64,000 nt of DNA from positions 62,001 to 126,000 of the forward strand of contig JAEPNQ010000002.1 of NCBI GenBank assembly GCA_017643305.1, read 5' to 3'. Source of the stretch: Marinibacterium sp. GTDB lineage: Bacteria; Pseudomonadota; Alphaproteobacteria; Rhodobacterales; Rhodobacteraceae. Below are positions 52,428-63,274 of this stretch, piece by piece; positions within the stretch are counted from its first letter, which is position 1; every line of letters starts with the position of its first letter. Both the position numbers and the translations under genes were made by a program. The notes under the pieces are model-generated. The model searched no databases. It was not told the origin of the DNA and saw nothing but the letters and a program-made list of their open reading frames with translations.

Positions 52428-53223
52428 TTACTCACCTAGCTTGGCGTGCACTTCGTCCAGGTCAATCTCACCAATTGGCATCTTGTTGGCCGGATTTTCG
52501 AAATCTTATTTGAACAGGTCATAATCGCTTTGTAGATTTCGTAAATTAGGTGCATCGACAGGTCGTCGAAATAGTCGTCGACCGGATGCTCCCACTTGGG
52601 TCCGTGGCCTTCGCTTTTGTTGAACCGAGGGATGCTATCCAGATTGGTGGAATGCGCCACCGGGATGGCGTCCAGTACCTTTTGCATCCCGTCATTGAAC
52701 GCTTCAGTCCAAAACATGATGTTGTATAGCCCACCTTTGGCGATAAACGTCGACACGTGACCCGACATCGCAGACCAGTGAATGTCCGGCTCCATAGACT
52801 TGCGCCAGCGGATGGTATCACGGGCAAACAGCAGAAAGCGGCGGAAACTGCGGATCTGGTAGAACACTTCCTTGCCGTCGTCGCCACCCACCTCACTCCC
52901 GTATTTCTGGATAAACAGCGGCACCAGATTCCCACGATAGCGTTTGCCGTTGCGCTGGATGCCACAGATCTTGTCGAAAACGAACTCAGGATCCCGGTAT
53001 AGGGGTTGCGCACACAGCTGAAGGCATAAGACGCTTGGTTTTTCACGTTCTGTTCGATCAGCGGTTGGCTGTTCTCCAGCGCCCGTTTGTGCAGACCTTT
53101 GGATGCATCGCGGATGCCCCCGTCAAAAAAACGCCCATGGTCATAACAATAGATGATCTGACCAGTGGACGAACAGGCGCATTTCGGCACCACCCGGTAC
53201 ACGACGCTTTCGGCTTCCGTCAT
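52428..53223 (-). pseudogene. Sulfotransferase family gene, multiply disrupted
   Basis: The N-terminal frame (from 53223) encodes VYRVVPKCACSSTGQIIYCYDHG, a PAPS 5'-phosphosulfate-binding loop of the P-K-C/A-A-S/C-T type, and FSCVRNPYTGILSSF, the 3'-phosphate-binding RNP motif. The frame breaks at a TTTT run (plus-strand AAAA 52977-52980, one base short) and continues as FDKICGIQRNGKRYRGNLVP to LIYEIYKA. A second one-base loss near 52526 and an in-frame TAA (52506-52508) interrupt the end (DYDLFK-stop-DFENPANKMPIGEIDLDE). With these repaired the gene would end at 52428. The family sulfates carbohydrates. It faces a glycosyltransferase gene that is also damaged. Confidence 0.8.
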
Positions 53224-54963: not shown

Positions 54964-56394
54964 TTACCTCGGCAAAAGATTACCCATTGCCCCAATCGGC
55001 GGCTCAGTGCCTGCGGGCAACGGGCTGACATAGCCATTGGGCCCAGTGCGGGTGCGCAGGTCCTGCCAAGCACGGTCCCGCAAGTCCGCATCCAGCATCA
55101 CGTCGATCCCCGTGGCTGCCATGATCTTGGCCGCGTGCACCATACCTTTCAGCGCTGGGGCGCCTTTTCCCTGCGCCACCATCTGCCACGAATGGAATGG
55201 GGTGCCGATCGCATAGTTCGCGCCCCACATTTGCACGGTGGGGACAACCCAACTGACATCAGCCACATCCGTTGACCCACTCAGCCCCGCCGGAAACGCA
55301 TCCGCCGGCACAACGGTGTCGGCCAGAACCTCCCCTGCACGTGGGGCGATGCCAACACTGCGATAGGCATCCGTGATGTCATCGTCATCAAAGGTCGACT
55401 GGAAGCGCGCGGCGTAAGCCCGGTCCGTGTCACCAAAGGCAGGTGTCCCCAATTGCTCCAGATTGCGCTGCATTGCATCCACCAGCGGCGTGTTTTCAAT
55501 CACGTTGGAAACAGCGGCTAAAACTTCGTCCTGCACCTTGGTTTCGGTCATCATCGCCGCACCCTGCGCCACCTTGCGCACGCGCTCCAGCAGCCGCAGC
55601 ATCTCGGGCGCAGTTTCGGCCCGCACGACATAGCGAATCTTGGCCTGCCCCTGCACCACGTTTGGGGAAATTCCACCTGCATCGATATAGGCGTAGTGGA
55701 TGCGCGCGCTGTCCGGCATATGTTCGCGCAGGTAATTGACGCCCACGTTCATCAACTCCACCGCGTCCAACGCCGACCGGCCCAGATGCGGCGCACCAGC
55801 GGCATGAGCAGCGCGACCGGTGAAGGTGAAATCAACCCGAGCATTTGCCAGCGAACTGCCTCGTATCACGGCTGGCAGCGCATGCGGGTGCCAGGTAACG
55901 GCGATATCCACATCCTCGAACGCGCCTTCACGCACCATGAATGCCTTGGCCGCGCCGCCTTCTTCCGCCGGGCAGCCATAATACCGCACGCGCCCCGGCG
56001 TACCAGTGGCAGCCAGCCAATCCCGTACAGCCACAGCGGCCAACATCGCGGCGGACCCCAGCAGGTTGTGACCACAACCATGGCCGTTGCCGCCCTGCTC
56101 CATGGGGGTCTGTACGGCCACATCGGCCTCTTGGCTCAATCCTGCCAGCGCATCGAATTCACCAAGAAAGGCAATCACCGGCCCGCCTTCCCCCGCCTCG
56201 CCCATCATCGCAGTGGGAATGTCAGCAACTCCGTCCTGCACCCGAAAGCCCTGATGCGTCAGCTCTTCCAGATGGGCGGCAGCGGACTGGGTTTCCGCAT
56301 AACAGGTCTCAGGTGTGGCCCAGATCCTGTCGGACAGGGCGCGAAACCTGTCCTGGGCCGCTTCGACAAATGACCAGGCAACGTGTTCGTTCAT
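54964..56394 (-). CDS. M20 family amidohydrolase (AbgB-like)
   Basis: The 476-residue product has M20 metal-ligand segments: GNGHGCGHNLLGSAAMLAA, YYGCPAEEGGAAKAFMV with the catalytic Glu pair, and TWHPHALPAVIRG. The dimerisation-domain segment FTGRAAHAAGAPHLGRSALDAVELMNVGVNYLREHM closely follows AbgB, which hydrolyses p-aminobenzoyl-glutamate. The substrate may be another N-acyl amino acid. Its start overlaps the stop of the DUF1523 gene by four bases, so it is coupled to the AAA+ cluster. Confidence 0.9.
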   Translation of the reverse strand: MNEHVAWSFVEAAQDRFRALSDRIWATPETCYAETQSAAAHLEELTHQGFRVQDGVADIPTAMMGEAGEGGPVIAFLGEFDALAGLSQEADVAVQTPMEQGGNGHGCGHNLLGSAAMLAAVAVRDWLAATGTPGRVRYYGCPAEEGGAAKAFMVREGAFEDVDIAVTWHPHALPAVIRGSSLANARVDFTFTGRAAHAAGAPHLGRSALDAVELMNVGVNYLREHMPDSARIHYAYIDAGGISPNVVQGQAKIRYVVRAETAPEMLRLLERVRKVAQGAAMMTETKVQDEVLAAVSNVIENTPLVDAMQRNLEQLGTPAFGDTDRAYAARFQSTFDDDDITDAYRSVGIAPRAGEVLADTVVPADAFPAGLSGSTDVADVSWVVPTVQMWGANYAIGTPFHSWQMVAQGKGAPALKGMVHAAKIMAATGIDVMLDADLRDRAWQDLRTRTGPNGYVSPLPAGTEPPIGAMGNLLPR

Positions 56395-57044
56395 TTCGAT
56401 TTCCAGCTATCTAGCCAACGCCGGAACCGCCCACGGCGTTCGGCGACGGCATCCCCCGCCGCTTCCAGGTTATCTTCCACCCGCTCCATCACCGGATCAA
56501 TCCGCCGTTCCCGGAACCGCACCCAACGCACCCGGATGGCCCAGGCGATGGCCGCACAGATCGTCAGGAAGATGATATTAAACCAGTTGATCACCCGGTG
56601 ATCCGGGCCCTCCACCGGCTTTACATGCACCGCATTCGGGAAAATCGACAGGAATTCATTCCGCCAGCCATAATGGCGCAGCGATACCCATTGCGGGTTG
56701 TCTTTGGTCGACATCAGATCATTCGCCTCAGCCTGCAGGTTGGAACTGTCGAGCTTGAAGTAGGGCGGCCAGCCCCAGCCAGTGTCTTCGTTGCGATAGA
56801 CCATCACCTTGCCGTTCTTGGCGCGCACCGTATCGATAAAGCGAATATCGCGGTTGCGGGTCGTGGTGCCCTCCTGCCCCACATCCTGCTGCGCCCAGAA
56901 CAGGGAGTTTTCGCCAAAATCCACCCGCCGCACATCGGTATCTACAATGCGGACAATGTCGTTCTGCGGCAGGGTGTAATGCAGAATGGCCAGGACAAAC
57001 CCCCAGAAGGTGATCCAGAACGCCCATTTGAGATAGGTCAGCAT
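56391..57044 (-). CDS. DUF1523 family membrane protein
   Basis: The 217-residue product has an N-terminal membrane span (MLTYLKWAFWITFWGFVLAILHY), an extracytoplasmic domain with RIVDTDVRRVDFGENSLFWAQ and VMVYRNEDTGWGWPPYFKLDS, a second span (INWFNIIFLTICAAIAWAIRV) and a basic cytoplasmic tail. It matches the uncharacterised DUF1523 family. The folded part lies between the spans, outside the cytoplasm. It is the last unknown gene of the AAA+ cluster, nine bases after the small membrane gene and overlapping the M20 gene. Confidence 0.85.
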   Translation of the reverse strand: MLTYLKWAFWITFWGFVLAILHYTLPQNDIVRIVDTDVRRVDFGENSLFWAQQDVGQEGTTTRNRDIRFIDTVRAKNGKVMVYRNEDTGWGWPPYFKLDSSNLQAEANDLMSTKDNPQWVSLRHYGWRNEFLSIFPNAVHVKPVEGPDHRVINWFNIIFLTICAAIAWAIRVRWVRFRERRIDPVMERVEDNLEAAGDAVAERRGRFRRWLDSWKSK

Positions 57045-57053
57045 GATGATGCC

Positions 57054-57320
57054 TCACATGAAATTCATAACAAAAACCAGCACAGCGATCACCACCAGGG
57101 GCACGATATAGACCCCCAGCAACAACTTGCGCCGGATCGAGTTGTCGTATTGTTTCAGGCCACGCTTGACGAACGCCTCGCGATCCCCGGTCAGTCCCTT
57201 ACGGTCCCAGTAATCGTTCAACTTACGCCGACGCGTGCTGCGGGACCACAGGCTGAGCACGATGTAAATGACCGTCAGGACGATCAACAGCATGAAGATC
57301 AGGCGCAGCGGTGCAATCAT
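57054..57320 (-). CDS. Small two-span membrane protein, AAA+ cluster
   Basis: The 88-residue product has two hydrophobic segments (PLRLIFMLLIVLTVIYIVLSL, shown in part, and LLLGVYIVPLVVIAVLVFVM) separated by a basic cytoplasmic or periplasmic loop (STRRRKLNDYWDRKGLTGDR). No family is recognised. An upstream in-frame ATG exists at 57347, but it overlaps the DUF6638 gene. The start at 57320 lies two bases after the DUF6638 stop, consistent with coupling. Confidence 0.75.
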   Translation of the reverse strand: MIAPLRLIFMLLIVLTVIYIVLSLWSRSTRRRKLNDYWDRKGLTGDREAFVKRGLKQYDNSIRRKLLLGVYIVPLVVIAVLVFVMNFM

Positions 57321-57322
57321 GA

Positions 57323-58672
57323 TCAGCGTCTCCTGACGGCGCCCCAAGGGCCAACCCGTTCAATCAGGTCGGGCTGCCGTGGCGGCAGCACCTTGTTTTC
57401 CATATCCGGTTCATGCCCGAACAGCGCCTCGCGCGCTCCGGCCTTGTCCACCTGATACTCCCGTTCAAGAAAATCAGCCACGAAAGATTTCTTGGTTTCC
57501 GACCACGACATGTAGCGCCGATAGAACAACTCCTTGTGGCAAATGAAGGTCTGGCGGAAATCCAACGGGGTCAGTTCGGCCAGCAACATGTTGGTCAGCT
57601 CGGCATTCGGGGTGTTCGCCGCGCGCAGGGTATAGAAATAGGCTGGGTGCTCCGAACTGATGCGCGGCCAGGTCCCGCCACCCTCGGCCCAGCTCAGCAA
57701 GTCGTGCAGCCCGTGATATTCCGGCGGCAACCGGTCGGCATGAGCGCGGGCAAGGCGACGCATGTCGCTGCGGTTCAACCCGGTCAGGTCCAGTCCCGCA
57801 TCCGCCGCCGCGTCAATCACGATGAAATCCATTTTCTGGCGCAGGATCGCCGCGCTGTCGATGCCGCGCGCTTCGATGATGGTTTCAGTCAGACCGTTTA
57901 ATTCAAAGAACTTCGCAATTGGGTTCCGATCGTTCATACCAAACACATACTTTACCGGAAGAGGCCCCAAAGCGTCCTTGTCCCCCGCCGCAATCACAGC
58001 GGGGTACGCGGCCTGCGGAAACATGTAGATCCCACCGAAATGCGAGGTCCAGAAATTGTCCTGCTGAAACTCGGTTTCCTTCAACCGGATCGGGTTGCGA
58101 GTCAGGTCACCCGATTTCTTCGCCGTTTCGATCATCTGCGCGATCAGCACATCGTCAAACCACGCATCGTCTTCGGATTTGAACCGGTCCACCATCTGCG
58201 CCAGCTCATCCGCATATCGTAGCACGCCATCGGTCGTGTCACACTCCACCCTGATCTTTCGGATCTTGAACAGGTCCGCAGGGCTCGTCAGCACAAACAC
58301 GGAGTTTTCCAGCTCCCCCGCCACCGCATCCCGCGCGGTCAGGGCAAAGAGCTGGCTTTCATTGGCCGTGATGAACCTTTCCAGTATTTCGTGGTTGGTG
58401 GAGGATTTTGCATTCAACAGCGGGCTGCGCTTCTGCTCGGTCGTCAGCAAGATGAACTGCCGGTTCACCCCGTTGTGGTTAAGGTAGAGATGATCGTCCA
58501 GCTCATCTCCGATCTCAGGTGAGTAGCCCGCGATGTCGATATGAAAGTCGGAAAGCTGGGTCTGCTTGCCCGTCAGATGCTGCAGTGCGCGGTTATACCG
58601 GTCAACCAGCGTCGGAGAGGCGACATGAACAAGGTCGCCAAACATGAGACCGCGTTGGATGAGGCGTTTCAT
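57323..58672 (-). CDS. DUF6638 family protein, AAA+ cluster
   Basis: The 449-residue product has no signal peptide or membrane span and appears soluble. It begins MKRLIQRGLMFGDLVHVASP and ends in a Pro/Arg-rich tail. I assign DUF6638 from memory of Rhodobacteraceae annotation; no catalytic motif is evident. Acidic stretches (EIGDELDDHLYL) and a His/Trp-rich centre (WTSHFGGIYMFPQAAYP) stand out. Its ATG overlaps the stop of a 46-codon small gene (ATGA), and it is followed by the small membrane gene. Confidence 0.8.
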   Translation of the reverse strand: MKRLIQRGLMFGDLVHVASPTLVDRYNRALQHLTGKQTQLSDFHIDIAGYSPEIGDELDDHLYLNHNGVNRQFILLTTEQKRSPLLNAKSSTNHEILERFITANESQLFALTARDAVAGELENSVFVLTSPADLFKIRKIRVECDTTDGVLRYADELAQMVDRFKSEDDAWFDDVLIAQMIETAKKSGDLTRNPIRLKETEFQQDNFWTSHFGGIYMFPQAAYPAVIAAGDKDALGPLPVKYVFGMNDRNPIAKFFELNGLTETIIEARGIDSAAILRQKMDFIVIDAAADAGLDLTGLNRSDMRRLARAHADRLPPEYHGLHDLLSWAEGGGTWPRISSEHPAYFYTLRAANTPNAELTNMLLAELTPLDFRQTFICHKELFYRRYMSWSETKKSFVADFLEREYQVDKAGAREALFGHEPDMENKVLPPRQPDLIERVGPWGAVRRR

Positions 58673-58809
58673 TGGTCCACCTTTACTCTAAAATCCTCCA
58701 GCTTTTCTGGTCGGGCACGGCCCGGCAAGCCTCTGGTAGGAAAATCATCCTCATCAAAAAACCCTGCATTGTAACACACCTCATCCGGCGTCTTGCCCCA
58801 AGCGACCAT
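58669..58809 (-). CDS. Small 46-residue protein between the ATPase and DUF6638 genes
   Basis: A 46-codon frame runs from an ATG at 58809 (or a GTG three bases earlier) to a TGA that overlaps the next ATG by the ATGA pattern. The product reads MVAWGKTPDEVCYNAGFFDE, then DDFPTRGLPGRARPEKLEDF and RVKVDQ. It fills the whole 140-base space between the ATPase stop and the DUF6638 start. The coupling pattern, the lack of unused bases and the protein-like composition support a real gene. It is soluble and carries a single Cys; no family is known to me. Confidence 0.6.
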   Translation of the reverse strand: MVAWGKTPDEVCYNAGFFDEDDFPTRGLPGRARPEKLEDFRVKVDQ

Positions 58810-58812
58810 CAC

Positions 58813-60753
58813 TCATGCGCCCCCCTTCTCGGCCAGATACCGACGCTTGGCCTCCTCCGAGCGGCCGAAGTCCCGCACCATCGCCTCAATCGCCACCTCG
58901 TCAGACTTGTCGGCATAGCGGAATTCGCTGTCGGCGTAGCGGTTGATCTCCTGAAGCACCATTTCCGTCGTGATAGGCACGCGCAACTCTTCGATCATCG
59001 CCTTCTTCTCGTCGTAGGATTTGAACAGGAACAGCTCTGGCTGCTCCATCCATTCATCCGGCAACTCGAAATCCATCGCGCGGACCTTGACTGCGTCGGT
59101 TATGTTCTTGATCACCCGGCCGGTGAACCGGTCATCCGCCTCCTGAATGCCCTTCAGATAGGTGCCCATCTTGGCAATCGTATCCAACTTCCCAACCCGG
59201 TCTGAAACCTGATCAAACACGCGCGTCAGGCCATCCTCATGCGGGCGATTATGGCTCTCGAAACTGGCGGCCACAGCTTTCTTGATCTCCTGCGCGGCAT
59301 ACACCTCGTGTTCCCCCAGCGGGATGTCATGGTTCTTGCCCATCAGCAGATAGAGGATGTCGATGTAATCCTCCCGCGTTTGCGGCCCATCCACCAGAAA
59401 CCGGGCGCCTGCCCGCTGGCGCAGGGCGTCATCCACGTTCTCGGGGTAGTTCGAGAACATGCCAAAGGTGCAGTTGCCCCGCACCACCGTATTGGCGCCC
59501 GCAAAACTTTCCATCAGCACGGCAGTGATCTCCAGCTGCCCGGCGCTCGACTGCCGGTCACCGCGCTTGCCCGCCAACTGATCGATATCATCAATGGTGC
59601 CAAACCCGATCACGCCCGGGTCAATAACGTTGTTGATAAACGCCTTGGCATTCTGCGCGGACTTGCCCTGATAACTGTCGATGCTCTCCGTGCTCAAGTT
59701 CTGGTAACGGAACGGATAGCCCGCGTTCTGGCAGTATTCGTTAATCAGCCCCGCCATCATCTGGATCAGCGTGGTCTTGCCCGTTCCCGGCTTGCCATCG
59801 CCCATGAAGGTAAAGATGAACCCGCCCAGCTCCGCAAACGGGTTCAGCCGCCGGTCAAAGTCATAGGCCATCAGCATCTTGCTGAGCTTCAGCGCCTGGT
59901 ACTTTGCGATATGGTTGCCCACCACCTCATGCGGCTTCTTGAAGGTCATGGTCAGCTTGGTGGACTTCGCCTTGGACGCTGGCGTGAACCCGTTGATCGT
60001 CAGATCATCGGCCTCCACCCGCCAGCTGGCTGACTGGAACGGCGCCAAATGCGCGGCAGTCTGGGCACGCAATGCGACCTTTTCCATCAGCTGTTCTGCA
60101 TAGGCGCTGATCGTCGCGACCAGCCGCGCATCATCTCCGGCAAAGTCGGCAATGTCCTGATCCAGTTCCCACAATGCACCATGCAGGGCAAGCTGGCCGT
60201 TATCGGTCAGTACCTCTTCGACCTCACCTACCTCAACTGCGGTTTCCGTCGCTTGAGACGCCAGCAAATAAGCTATCGCATTGGCAAAAACATGCAGCCC
60301 TATCAGCGCCTCTGCTGTCAGCAGCGCAGCAAACTCGCCCTTGCGGTTCGCCGCCAGGCTGCCCTGCAGATTGTCCCGCTTCAGACCCGCCAAAGCGGTC
60401 TGTTCGCCATATATCTCCGTCACCGCCAGCGAGATTGCCAAGGCCCGCCGCAACGCATTCATCGCTACTGCCTGCGCGGGCGAGGTCAACGCATCGCCCT
60501 CATCCGACGCCTCGATGCGGTCCAGCAAATGCACCCCCTCGGGCCGCGCGGTCGACCGCGTCACCAACCCTGGCGTGGTCGACCGAAACCGCCGCCGCGT
60601 ACCAATCCCGGCAGAGCGTTCAGATTGCGCAGGCTCCTTGCCCTTGCCAATGCGCGGCGTGTGATCAAACCCCTCCAGCAGGGCCGTCGCGGCCGGGTAA
60701 TGCTTGCGAATATCTTCCTCGCGCAGCTCCATCTGGTCAGCGGTCAATGTCAT
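58813..60753 (-). CDS. AAA+ ATPase, central gene of an uncharacterised cluster
   Basis: The 646-residue product has an N-terminal region without a known domain (residues 1-250, with a basic Arg-rich patch near 52-70). An AAA+ core follows (about 300-520) with Walker A GKPGTGKTTL at 320-329, Walker B GFGTIDDID at 383-391, a sensor-1 Asn in GMFSNYPE (435) and arginines in DDALRQRAGARF suitable as finger residues. The C-terminal helical part ends EEAKRRYLAEKGGA. It lacks ClpB, MoxR or Lon hallmarks outside the core. It is cytoplasmic and presumably acts as an oligomeric remodelling motor with the flanking membrane and coiled-coil proteins. A 114-base gap with hairpins separates it from the next gene upstream. 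Confidence 0.85.
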   Translation of the reverse strand: MTLTADQMELREEDIRKHYPAATALLEGFDHTPRIGKGKEPAQSERSAGIGTRRRFRSTTPGLVTRSTARPEGVHLLDRIEASDEGDALTSPAQAVAMNALRRALAISLAVTEIYGEQTALAGLKRDNLQGSLAANRKGEFAALLTAEALIGLHVFANAIAYLLASQATETAVEVGEVEEVLTDNGQLALHGALWELDQDIADFAGDDARLVATISAYAEQLMEKVALRAQTAAHLAPFQSASWRVEADDLTINGFTPASKAKSTKLTMTFKKPHEVVGNHIAKYQALKLSKMLMAYDFDRRLNPFAELGGFIFTFMGDGKPGTGKTTLIQMMAGLINEYCQNAGYPFRYQNLSTESIDSYQGKSAQNAKAFINNVIDPGVIGFGTIDDIDQLAGKRGDRQSSAGQLEITAVLMESFAGANTVVRGNCTFGMFSNYPENVDDALRQRAGARFLVDGPQTREDYIDILYLLMGKNHDIPLGEHEVYAAQEIKKAVAASFESHNRPHEDGLTRVFDQVSDRVGKLDTIAKMGTYLKGIQEADDRFTGRVIKNITDAVKVRAMDFELPDEWMEQPELFLFKSYDEKKAMIEELRVPITTEMVLQEINRYADSEFRYADKSDEVAIEAMVRDFGRSEEAKRRYLAEKGGA

Positions 60754-60809
60754 CTCGAATCACTCCGCATCTTCATCTTTGGTAAAACACTTCCGTCCAA
60801 TGCCCGGCA

Positions 60810-60863
60810 GGCCTCATATGCGAGGCCAAGAGGGGAGACACAGATTTTTCCGAGAAAAATCTG
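60810..60863. repeat. Pair of inverted repeats inside the AAA+ cluster
   Basis: A 6-base stem (GGCCTC/GAGGCC, 60810-60827) is followed by a perfect 9-base stem CAGATTTTT/AAAAATCTG with a 5-base loop (60841-60863), immediately downstream of the 375-residue protein gene on the minus strand. The second could be a terminator or a processing/attenuation stem that sets different levels for the upstream and downstream halves of the cluster. From memory, the CAGATTTTT stem recurs in Rhodobacteraceae intergenic regions. Confidence 0.5.
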
Positions 60864-60867
60864 CACC

Positions 60868-61995
60868 CTAATATCGCAGCACCGATCCACTGTCGCTCAC
60901 CACAAACTTGCGCACATCTGCAAAACCCGGCGGGTTGCGTTCGGCCAGCACCTGGAACGGGCGTTGGGGCAGGATGATTGCCCGTTGCGTCATTGTCGCC
61001 CCGGTCTCTGCCCCACGGCCGGAAAACGGATCCAGTGCAAAAATCTGCCGCTCCACGGTCGAAAACCATCCCGCGCGCTCTTCCACCACACGTTCGCTTT
61101 CCAAGGTTTCCGTCGTCCAGGCCAACGCCCAATCCTGACCTTTGGGCGCCATTGCCTCCGCCAACACTTCGCGCAGCGGGCCGGTCTGTTCGGTGAACGC
61201 GCTGGAATACATCGGCCCAACGTGAATCCGACGCAGGCGCTTGGGGTGCAGATCATCAAAGTCCTGATCAAACCCTTTTGCGATTGTCAGCAGCTTCAAC
61301 GCGCCCAACGACTGCGCCATCAGATGCGCCTGCACCTCTGGCCAACGCCGCTGGTCCTTGGGCAAAGCGGTGCGGCCTGTATCCTCCACCTCCAGCAGGT
61401 AGATGACCGGCAAGTTGATTTGACTGTCATAGACAGCCCAATGCACCTGAAACAAACGCCGGTCTTCCGCAACCGTACCCAGCCACACACATTCGGGGTC
61501 GTTCTGCGCCCAGAACAGGTCCCCTTTCAAAATCTCTTCGTAGTACAGCCGTTGGGACAGCGCGAATTGCAGCTTGGTGGGTACCTTCTGGTCGCCAATA
61601 ATCGACCGCACCATTTCATTTTTCAGCTCTTCTTCCGATGGGATATTCGCCAGATGCGACCGCGCCTGCTGCGCGTCGTTGGCCATGGTCAGCAGTTCGG
61701 CCGCTACAGGAAAACCGCTGTCGCGTTTGTCCATCTGGAGAGATCCAAAAAACCGACCTGTATCGCGCCCCACCAGCAGGTACTTCATGCTCAGCGCCCT
61801 GAACGTGTAGGTCAGCGCCATCAGATACACCGACAGCGCCTTGACCTCGTGCTTGGCCACCTGTCCTTCGGCCTCCATCACTCCGGCGACGCGCAACAGG
61901 TGCTGGGTGATCGCCTCGAACTTGCCGAAATACCGGCGCGAGGCGAACATGTCGGTCAGGCCGACGTGGTCTTGGGAATGTGTCGTCTCGGTCAT
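60868..61995 (-). CDS. Hypothetical 375-residue soluble protein, AAA+ cluster
   Basis: The product starts MTETTHSQDHVGLTDMFASR and has no signal peptide or membrane span. The first half is predicted helical (YFGKFEAITQHLLRVAGVME, ARSHLANIPSEEELKNEMVR). The second half is richer in strands (LFQVHWAVYDSQINLPVIYLLEVED). I recognise no domain or catalytic motif. It overlaps the upstream small membrane gene by four bases, so its dosage is coupled to that gene and to the coiled-coil protein. Confidence 0.78.
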   Translation of the reverse strand: MTETTHSQDHVGLTDMFASRRYFGKFEAITQHLLRVAGVMEAEGQVAKHEVKALSVYLMALTYTFRALSMKYLLVGRDTGRFFGSLQMDKRDSGFPVAAELLTMANDAQQARSHLANIPSEEELKNEMVRSIIGDQKVPTKLQFALSQRLYYEEILKGDLFWAQNDPECVWLGTVAEDRRLFQVHWAVYDSQINLPVIYLLEVEDTGRTALPKDQRRWPEVQAHLMAQSLGALKLLTIAKGFDQDFDDLHPKRLRRIHVGPMYSSAFTEQTGPLREVLAEAMAPKGQDWALAWTTETLESERVVEERAGWFSTVERQIFALDPFSGRGAETGATMTQRAIILPQRPFQVLAERNPPGFADVRKFVVSDSGSVLRY

Positions 61996-62201
61996 CGCCG
62001 AGCACCTTTCTCCCGCAGCTCACGCTTCCGCTTATGTCGCAGGATAACCATCCGCGCGCCCAAAGGCAGCGACACAGCCACCAGCAGCCAGACCATCCAG
62101 TTCTTCACCAGCCCATCTTCGAACCCGAACAGAGGGGCCAGCCCATGCAGGCCAAAGAGTATGATCAACCCCAGGCCAAGGACACCAACAAAGAGCTTCA
62201 T
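61992..62201 (-). CDS. Small two-span membrane protein, AAA+ cluster
   Basis: The 69-residue product has two hydrophobic segments (MKLFVGVLGLGLIILFGLHG and WMVWLLVAVSLPLGARMVIL) and a strongly basic C-terminus (RHKRKRELREKGARR), which the positive-inside rule places in the cytoplasm. It overlaps the coiled-coil gene upstream and the 375-residue protein gene downstream, four bases each. No family is recognised. Confidence 0.75.
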   Translation of the reverse strand: MKLFVGVLGLGLIILFGLHGLAPLFGFEDGLVKNWMVWLLVAVSLPLGARMVILRHKRKRELREKGARR

Positions 62202-63274
62202 CCGCCGTAAAGGTTCTTGTCGTGCTTATCGACAATTGCTTGGAACCGGCGAGCAAAGCGTTCGTCCGCCTTGGCCTTGGCTTCCAGCACATCGCGGGCA
62301 AAGACCATATGGTCTTCATGCGCTTCCAGCATGTCGGCCATCTTCTGGTTCGTTGCGGTGCCGATTGCGGCCATGGCCGTCTGTGCCTCCTGGTCGGTTT
62401 TCACACCGATCTCGTTGATCCGGTGCGCAACATCCTGCTGCTGCGCCGTTTTCAGCGATTTGGACAATGCGTCATACAGCACGACCCGCTGTTTCGTATC
62501 CGTCTGCAGCTTGTTGATCAGAACCATCTGCGTCGCCGCCTGGTTCTGCAGGCTGTCGACCCAGGTTTTGCCCTTCTCGATGTACCGCTCCAGCGTCTGC
62601 GAACGGGCCAGTTTCACCTGCTCCTGCTGCACCATTTCGTTGTACTTCGAATTCAGCTCTGCCAGCTCGGTTTCCAGCTTGGTCCGCGCAGCGGCATCCT
62701 GTTCGACGCTGACCTTGTTCTCCAGCTCAACGATCTTGGGGTCCATTCCCAGAATATCGGTGCGGATCTGTTCCAGCTCACCCACCACCGCTTCGCGTTC
62801 GTCCAAGGTGCCGCTCAGGTTGGTTTCCACCTTGGTTTTCTGTTCCTCCAGCATGCTCAACTGGCCCTGCAACAATTGTACGATGATGTCGGACTTCGAA
62901 ATCAGGTCCTGCAGCTTGTCGTCGATATTGGCCGTGCGCATCCGTTCCTGGCGCATGGATTCCGACTTCCCCCGCGAAAAGACCCCTACGAAGCTTTCCC
63001 ACCCCGTCTTGTTGCGCATTTCGTCGAAATCCTTGGAAAAGGCGGCGGTGACATCGTCCAATCCCATGATCAACTCGGCGATGTTGGCATTCATCACATC
63101 GGTATGGGCATGCACGTCTTCCAACGTCGCATTTTCGATGTCGATATCGGCGCTTTCCCCGGCTTCGATCTTGGACCGGGCCGCCTCAATCCGGCTGGTG
63201 ACCGTTTCAATCTCGGACTGCGCCTTTGCCACCTGGGCCTGTGACTCGCGCACCAGCGCATCGAAATCCGCCAT
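62198..63274 (-). CDS. Coiled-coil protein, first gene of the AAA+ cluster
   Basis: The 358-residue product is almost entirely helical and rich in Glu, Gln, Lys and Ala with heptad character: residues about 8-40 (ESQAQVAKAQSEIETVTSRI), 125-245 (LQGQLSMLEEQKTKVETNLS through QDAAARTKLETELAELNSKY) and 255-330. It has no signal or membrane span. The layout, a short amphipathic lead followed by long helices, vaguely recalls TelA-like proteins of tellurite/stress loci, but I see no diagnostic motif. GAAGGGA precedes the ATG. As the first coupled gene it probably sets expression of the cluster. Confidence 0.8.
   Translation of the reverse strand: MADFDALVRESQAQVAKAQSEIETVTSRIEAARSKIEAGESADIDIENATLEDVHAHTDVMNANIAELIMGLDDVTAAFSKDFDEMRNKTGWESFVGVFSRGKSESMRQERMRTANIDDKLQDLISKSDIIVQLLQGQLSMLEEQKTKVETNLSGTLDEREAVVGELEQIRTDILGMDPKIVELENKVSVEQDAAARTKLETELAELNSKYNEMVQQEQVKLARSQTLERYIEKGKTWVDSLQNQAATQMVLINKLQTDTKQRVVLYDALSKSLKTAQQQDVAHRINEIGVKTDQEAQTAMAAIGTATNQKMADMLEAHEDHMVFARDVLEAKAKADERFARRFQAIVDKHDKNLYGG

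Follow-up and report, generated by a model that had tools for sequence, protein, structure and literature searches.

CBASS, Avs, Lamassu and Zorya are defence systems in which a conserved sensor is combined with a variable effector; their hallmarks are a cyclase, a STAND protein, the SMC-like LmuB and the MotAB-like ZorAB. Constant cores with exchangeable effectors are an established design. Defence hotspots between core genes are also known (PMC10250203). At the core defence hotspots cDHS1 and cDHS2 of Pseudomonas aeruginosa, diverse defence genes are swapped between conserved flanking core genes, and the authors suggest exchange through recombination in these conserved flanks (PMC10250203). 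cDHS1 spans 1-224 kb, and both hotspots adjoin tRNA/tmRNA genes and accept mobile elements (PMC10250203). Here we describe an operon of Marinibacterium sp. (Rhodobacteraceae) found in a 64,000-nucleotide stretch of contig JAEPNQ010000002.1 (the window, whose positions are used below). The operon has a fixed core order and two variable slots. Slot 2 holds co-directional, low-GC (guanine plus cytosine) cargo genes, often coupled to their neighbours by 4-base-pair (bp) overlaps. The slots turn over rapidly at a fixed chromosomal site, and one cargo family is confined to slot 2. We give about an even chance to the operon being a modular conflict system, probably directed against phages, with a fixed core and interchangeable cargo in two slots. 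Its features in the window are as follows.

A, 62198-63274, minus strand: core gene; open reading frame (ORF) for an all-helical coiled coil of 358 amino acids (aa).
Slot 1, between A and C, 61996-62197: exchangeable gene slot, 202 bp in the window.
B, 61992-62201, minus strand: slot 1 occupant; ORF of 69 aa with two transmembrane (TM) segments and 4-bp overlaps on both sides.
C, 60868-61995, minus strand: core gene for a soluble protein of 375 aa, without a Pfam family.
D, 58813-60753, minus strand: core gene for a classic-clade AAA ATPase of 646 aa (PF00004).
Slot 2, between D and F, 58673-58812: hypervariable gene slot, 140 bp in the window.
E, 58669-58812, minus strand: ORF in slot 2, 47 codons with a GTG start.
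F, 57323-58672, minus strand: core gene for a DUF6638 protein of 449 aa (PF20343).
G, 57054-57347, minus strand: membrane protein of 97 aa with two TM segments.
H, 56391-57044, minus strand: single-span DUF1523 protein of 217 aa (PF07509).

As at cDHS1 and cDHS2, defence genes are exchanged in slot 2 between conserved core flanks, but the slot of this operon accommodates one gene or a few, sits within a single transcription-direction gene cluster and has translational coupling to both neighbours. With CBASS, Avs, Lamassu and Zorya the operon shares a constant ATP-using or sensory core joined to an exchangeable effector (Mrr, HNH or membrane proteins), but it has two slots instead of one. Pfam and PADLOC searches found none of the hallmark proteins of these four systems in the core beyond coiled-coil-level noise. 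PADLOC, Pfam, PDB and the literature searched contained no known system that matched the core, and neither the core family nor two translationally coupled exchange slots in one operon were described in those libraries and papers, although absence from the searched collections is no proof that the core is undescribed. Literature searches returned nothing on DUF6638, keyword searches for like architectures gave general defence and hotspot papers only, and the few papers naming DUF1523 or DUF2333 dealt, by their titles and abstracts, with other topics.

An earlier note, made from the sequence alone, had listed eight same-strand ORFs here, and all eight are present on the minus strand. Its assignments to AAA+ (D), DUF6638 (F) and DUF1523 (H) were all matched by Pfam profiles, its two-span membrane proteins B and G each have two TM segments, and the four-base links among its first three genes are seen as 4-bp overlaps at A/B and B/C. 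E and F also overlap by 4 bp, F and G overlap by 25 bp, and G and H are 9 bp apart. The spacing of nine bases or fewer given for the later genes fails at C and D, which are separated by a gap of 114 bp.

We sampled 198 Rhodobacteraceae genomes, one per genus, and found D in 83 of them. Gene order was determined by tblastn in 101 loci (designated by L numbers), comprising 20 divergent loci, 80 named loci and the window. Wherever the contig reached, the order was A-C-D-F-G-H or the same order minus G, and because none of the 101 loci showed a rearranged core, the core gene order is far beyond chance. A was present in every Rhodobacteraceae locus whose contig reached that far, and its identity was 35-43% in Rhizobiaceae, in Vibrio and in L037, an outlying locus; C was conserved to Vibrio at 27-29% identity. 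The A-C-D-F order recurred at 26-54% identity in Rhizobiaceae (L165-L167 among them) and on large Vibrio replicons (L163, L164), and was also found in another alphaproteobacterial family (L037, L192). In the Rhizobiaceae loci L162 and L193-L198, A-C-D-F was accompanied by a DUF2333 gene in the place of H (6e-16 in L162). G occurred in Rhodobacteraceae and one gammaproteobacterium. B was not conserved across the 101 loci, and the places of B and E varied in every lineage. The proposal that the eight genes form a single system is supported for the core, which stays together as A-C-D-F-G-H in Rhodobacteraceae and as A-C-D-F in Rhizobiaceae and Vibrio; the eight are not one fixed unit, with B and E being slot occupants.

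The gammaproteobacterial locus L191 carried a copy of the core operon with D 73% identical to that of the window and slot 2 empty; because this copy is Rhodobacteraceae-like, it probably reflects an interclass transfer. Viral or plasmid mobility of the core was considered and rejected: no phage record or viral contig encoded D, and the ten records with the core in the plasmid collection were all very large replicons labelled non-mobilizable. The Sinorhizobium meliloti record in that collection, at 3.7 Mb, is probably no true plasmid. In S. meliloti, a fragment bound by ChvI lies within SMc02733 (PMC3687685). Gene order suggests that SMc02733 may be a gene of this operon.

Slot contents differed between even close relatives. 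Species pairs whose D genes were at least 85% identical in DNA numbered 176 (165 for slot 1); slot 2 was common to 6/176 and slot 1 to 13/165. The core genes were common to 174-176 of the 176 pairs, and the F-H interval, which holds the fast-evolving gene G, to 123. Genes outside the operon were common to 132-134 of 152 pairs with D 87.5-90% identical. Flanking genes are therefore kept while the slots differ, which means that the operon stays put as its slots change.

An operon at a fixed site, vertically kept within genera, would also suit another explanation: an operon with a housekeeping or envelope-stress role and no part in defence, which offers a safe harbour to guest genes. The highly conserved ends of D and F and steady expression would let guests, defence genes included, be read through and be swapped by homologous recombination. 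Several loci with empty slots speak for such guests. By contrast, D in just 83 of the 198 sampled genera would be unusual for a housekeeping gene. We consider the safe harbour a serious explanation that nevertheless falls well short of an even chance.

The fit of the cargo to slot 2 bears on the same question. Slot 2 measured 34-2382 bp in Rhodobacteraceae and 8 bp in L037, and such lengths leave little room for mobile elements. A same-strand ORF of at least 90 aa was present in 81 slots; in 34 of these an ORF started exactly 4 bp before the end of the D stop codon and in 42 one ended exactly 4 bp into F, with both junctions exact in 17. Slot 2 ORFs of at least 150 aa were co-directional with the operon by 53 to 5 (p 3e-11). 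With the cut-off at 90 aa and both strands counted, 114 ORFs fell into 66 unrelated BLAST clusters. Mean GC content was 0.537 in the slots versus 0.610 in D, the slot being lower in 68 of 84 loci with slots of at least 300 bp, and a TM segment was predicted in 76 of 99 slot proteins versus 126 of 589 flank proteins, an excess that persisted within size classes. Exact 4-bp coupling at both sides argues against a mere harbour for guests, and so does the fact that a single operon has two slots, each with small membrane proteins.

Several slot 2 genes belong to families associated with conflict. Slot 2 encoded Mrr_cat plus Mrr_N in L076 (1.7e-32), AbiJ_NTD4 in L079 (8e-9), putAbiC in L053 (3e-16), DUF2971, which is PADLOC PDC-S31, in L081 (1e-23), and DUF559 in L046 (1e-30), with DUF559 also present in several Rhizobiaceae slots. 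L089 held a DUF433 and PIN_10 pair (PIN_10 1e-15), L105 an HNH protein with weak type IV similarity, and L099 a thioredoxin-like protein. The RX4-5H motif, which is typical of HEPN RNases, appeared in two cargo families, as RNELYH (L091/L201) and as RNExxxH (the L073 group), in both as a motif only, with no profile match. Ninety neighbouring genes scanned likewise encoded ordinary domains such as flagellin, sulfotransferase, SnoaL and LysR, and their PADLOC matches were weak and generic only. Turnover and conflict domains together indicate variable defence genes exchanged horizontally between conserved core genes, as at cDHS-type hotspots, and the control flanks held no conflict domains in the families shown. 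The earlier view that a defence role has no specific support remains correct for the window; it does not extend to the relatives, whose slot 2 holds Mrr, AbiJ and putAbiC as well as DUF559, DUF2971 and PIN genes. Mrr, AbiJ, DUF2971 and DUF559 are families known as free-standing genes, as guests in a safe harbour would be.

The same cargo bears on the membrane-associated remodelling machine of the earlier note, taken as a machine with no link to conflict whose variable genes would be fast-evolving small membrane subunits. A coiled coil, an AAA protein and membrane proteins do occur together, small two-span proteins like B and G are frequent, and about three quarters of the cargo has a TM segment. 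However, slot 2 cargo spans 66 clusters and includes non-homologous nucleases and Abi proteins, one fast-evolving gene cannot yield Mrr and AbiJ in different Ruegeria species, and the coiled coil of A matches only generic helical bundles. The cargo identities weaken this explanation, and we regard it as unlikely.

We then asked how closely cargo families follow the core in the 198 genomes. L064-type cargo, a membrane module with a GDTLAG motif, had five matches, each immediately downstream of D and in the orientation of D, with gaps of 10-580 bp, and none outside slot 2. A family confined to slot 2 in 5/5 cases speaks against the safe harbour. L119-type cargo had four matches, two of them in slot 2. 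At least one cargo family thus looks dedicated to the core (L064-type) and another does not (L119-type). The HEPN-like protein of L201, used as a query, had no match in the 198 genomes and is uninformative on this tie.

A pattern suggestive of exchange was seen in the core genes themselves. Identity at fourfold-degenerate sites, measured across 17 Ruegeria genomes, climbed toward both slots from both sides. Toward slot 1 it rose in A from 0.51 to about 0.8, and it fell in C from 0.79 to 0.56 moving away; toward slot 2 it rose in D from 0.49-0.62 to 0.85, and in F it fell with distance from 0.88 to 0.51. Values at the C/D and F/G/H junctions, which have no slot, stayed at 0.39-0.62. The Spearman correlation (rho) between identity and distance to the nearest slot was -0.83 in Ruegeria (leave-one-out -0.84 to -0.82) and weaker in Tateyamaria (-0.53) and Marivita (-0.37). 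Adjacent blocks are not independent, so p-values for the gradient overstate its significance, and the argument rests on the symmetry around two slots and on the flat control junctions. The pattern is recombination-like, such as would arise if homologous recombination near the slots recurred under selection for new cargo; the synonymous gradient may alternatively reflect codon usage.

The ATPase at the centre of the core matched PF00004 at 4.5e-12 (47 bits, cut-off 21.2), which places it in the AAA family. Its Walker A motif is GDGKPGTGKTT, and its Walker B-like motif, GTIDDID, has aspartate replacing the usual catalytic glutamate. This aspartate pair (DDID, not DEID) was invariant in the alignments, and GxxGxGKT, DD.D and the RQRA region (second region of homology) were kept to Vibrio. 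D shares its AAA domain with classic AAA ATPases (Vps4, fidgetin, the FtsH/i-AAA clade) but differs from them in about 250 N-terminal residues without a known domain and in DDID for DEID; no protease domain was found in D. F matched PF20343 over 439/439 profile positions (1e-228, 759.8 bits), with a C-terminal GPWG tail conserved in Rhodobacteraceae, and H matched PF07509 over its full length (5e-72, 241 bits). A, B, C, E and G had no convincing match in Pfam, NCBIfam or PADLOC, and PDB profile searches with A, C and F returned no relative above noise. Against PADLOC-DB 2.0, the core proteins A, C, D, F, G and H matched no system component, the sole matches being to coiled coils at noise level and to TRIP13 (8e-6) at generic AAA level. 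Profile searches placed none of the unknown proteins in a known pathway, in keeping with the single-system proposal.

Structure models added little for A and C. The membrane-associated remodelling machine of the earlier note is a possible reading, but neither A nor C showed a clear structural relative. The AlphaFold2 (AF2) model of A was helical, with a predicted local distance difference test (pLDDT) score of 63; this low-confidence model gave middling matches to generic helical bundles (best Z 13), and a check against the ESCRT-III/PspA fold likewise found generic helical matches only. The AF2 model of C was confident (pLDDT 87), but Foldseek searches of PDB and of viral models returned nothing at E<=0.001. 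VIA-align matched residues 175-339 of C to the T-fold proteins urate oxidase, dihydroneopterin aldolase and GTP cyclohydrolase at Z 4-5, too weak to claim kinship.

A is helical and of TelA-like length, and Ter/TelA modules often include ATPases, features that would suit a divergent tellurite/TelA-type stress module formed by a TelA-relative coiled coil and an ATPase. The likeness to this toxic-anion resistance family is that of a helical protein of similar size, with no sequence or profile similarity: A had no Pfam match to TelA (PF05816), hhalign profile-profile probabilities were 3.6% and 0.7%, and the genuine TelA of this genome is a different gene located elsewhere. We consider such a module highly improbable.

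For the modular conflict operon, we propose a mechanism on the basis of these comparisons. A, C, D and F would most likely assemble into a single ATP-driven complex, with G/H holding it at the membrane. This core would sense or transduce an insult, phage entry being the favoured guess given the cargo, and would license the cargo, usually a membrane protein, to act as effector. Cargo would be translated in line with the core genes and swapped between lineages via homologous recombination in the flanking ones, with phages as the likely selective agent. It is plausible, though somewhat less than evenly likely, that the operon represents an undescribed class of immune machine: an AAA-driven membrane complex with an A-C-D-F core, present in Alpha- and Gammaproteobacteria, with exchangeable effectors in two recombination-maintained slots. 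Its output would change by allele exchange without mobile-element machinery.

Several observations weigh against a conflict role. Just about 8 of 94 Rhodobacteraceae slots held a named conflict domain, PADLOC matches were few, and most cargo is an uncharacterised membrane protein. The core matched no PADLOC family above the generic AAA level. Slot 2 is empty in Vibrio, L037, L045, L047, L128, L191 and L192, and in these loci the core therefore either needs no cargo or finds it elsewhere. L119-type cargo was also present in two genomes in which no D turned up, as the safe harbour would allow, and six Roseovarius genomes showed no synonymous gradient (rho -0.21). Empty slots and cargo known as free-standing genes favour the safe harbour; a function is favoured by the L064-type cargo, which looks dedicated, by the presence of two slots and by coupling on both sides.

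Slot 1 contained mainly small membrane proteins with one to four spans, often with 4-bp overlaps and differing between genomes. B fills slot 1 of the window, whose slot 2 is a 140-bp remnant. The 46-codon small gene of the earlier note exists as an ORF (E, 47 codons), but E had no homologue in the 100 other loci and is doubtful as a gene because the ATG at the usual -4 position (ATGAGTGATGG, ATGA start) opens just an 11-codon frame. Like cargo genes, E has its end 4 bp inside F; it is probably a short or decayed occupant of slot 2.

Other sequences were seen in and around the slots. At 58700-58725, slot 2 of the window contains a GC-rich 18-24 bp sequence, GGCTTGCCGGGCCGTGCC, which also lies in slots of L117, L121, L122 and L098, where copies are often inverted pairs 130-150 bp apart. 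It is single copy in the window's genome at two or fewer mismatches and is possibly a small palindromic repeat element. A rhizobial slot 2 (L162:11910-12110) has paired GGGGAGAGGG-type repeats beside its DUF559 gene. The C-D gap holds a Fic gene in L197 of Rhizobiaceae (L197:5803-6630) and lipoprotein-like genes in the Rhodobacteraceae loci L078, L113, L121 and L134, and may be a third, rarer slot.

Downstream of H lies a ninth same-strand gene.

M20-family peptidase/amidohydrolase, 54964-56394, minus strand: ninth same-strand gene.

Its start overlaps the H stop by 4 bp, and it adjoins H in just one other locus (L058) among the loci compared. Further along, an ORF at 52546-53223 on the minus strand has a sulfotransferase-like start, with the pattern lost after about 70 residues, a possible frameshift; flanks of other loci also hold sulfotransferase genes.

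If the conflict reading is true, an operon found in two fifths of the sampled Rhodobacteraceae genera, and in Sinorhizobium and Vibrio, for which no paper among those searched describes a function, would be a defence or conflict system. Its slots would then serve as a discovery device, with dozens of unknown cargo families as candidate effectors and the core as a testable sensor. It would also mean that ordinary homologous recombination can keep two exchange sites open inside a bacterial operon.

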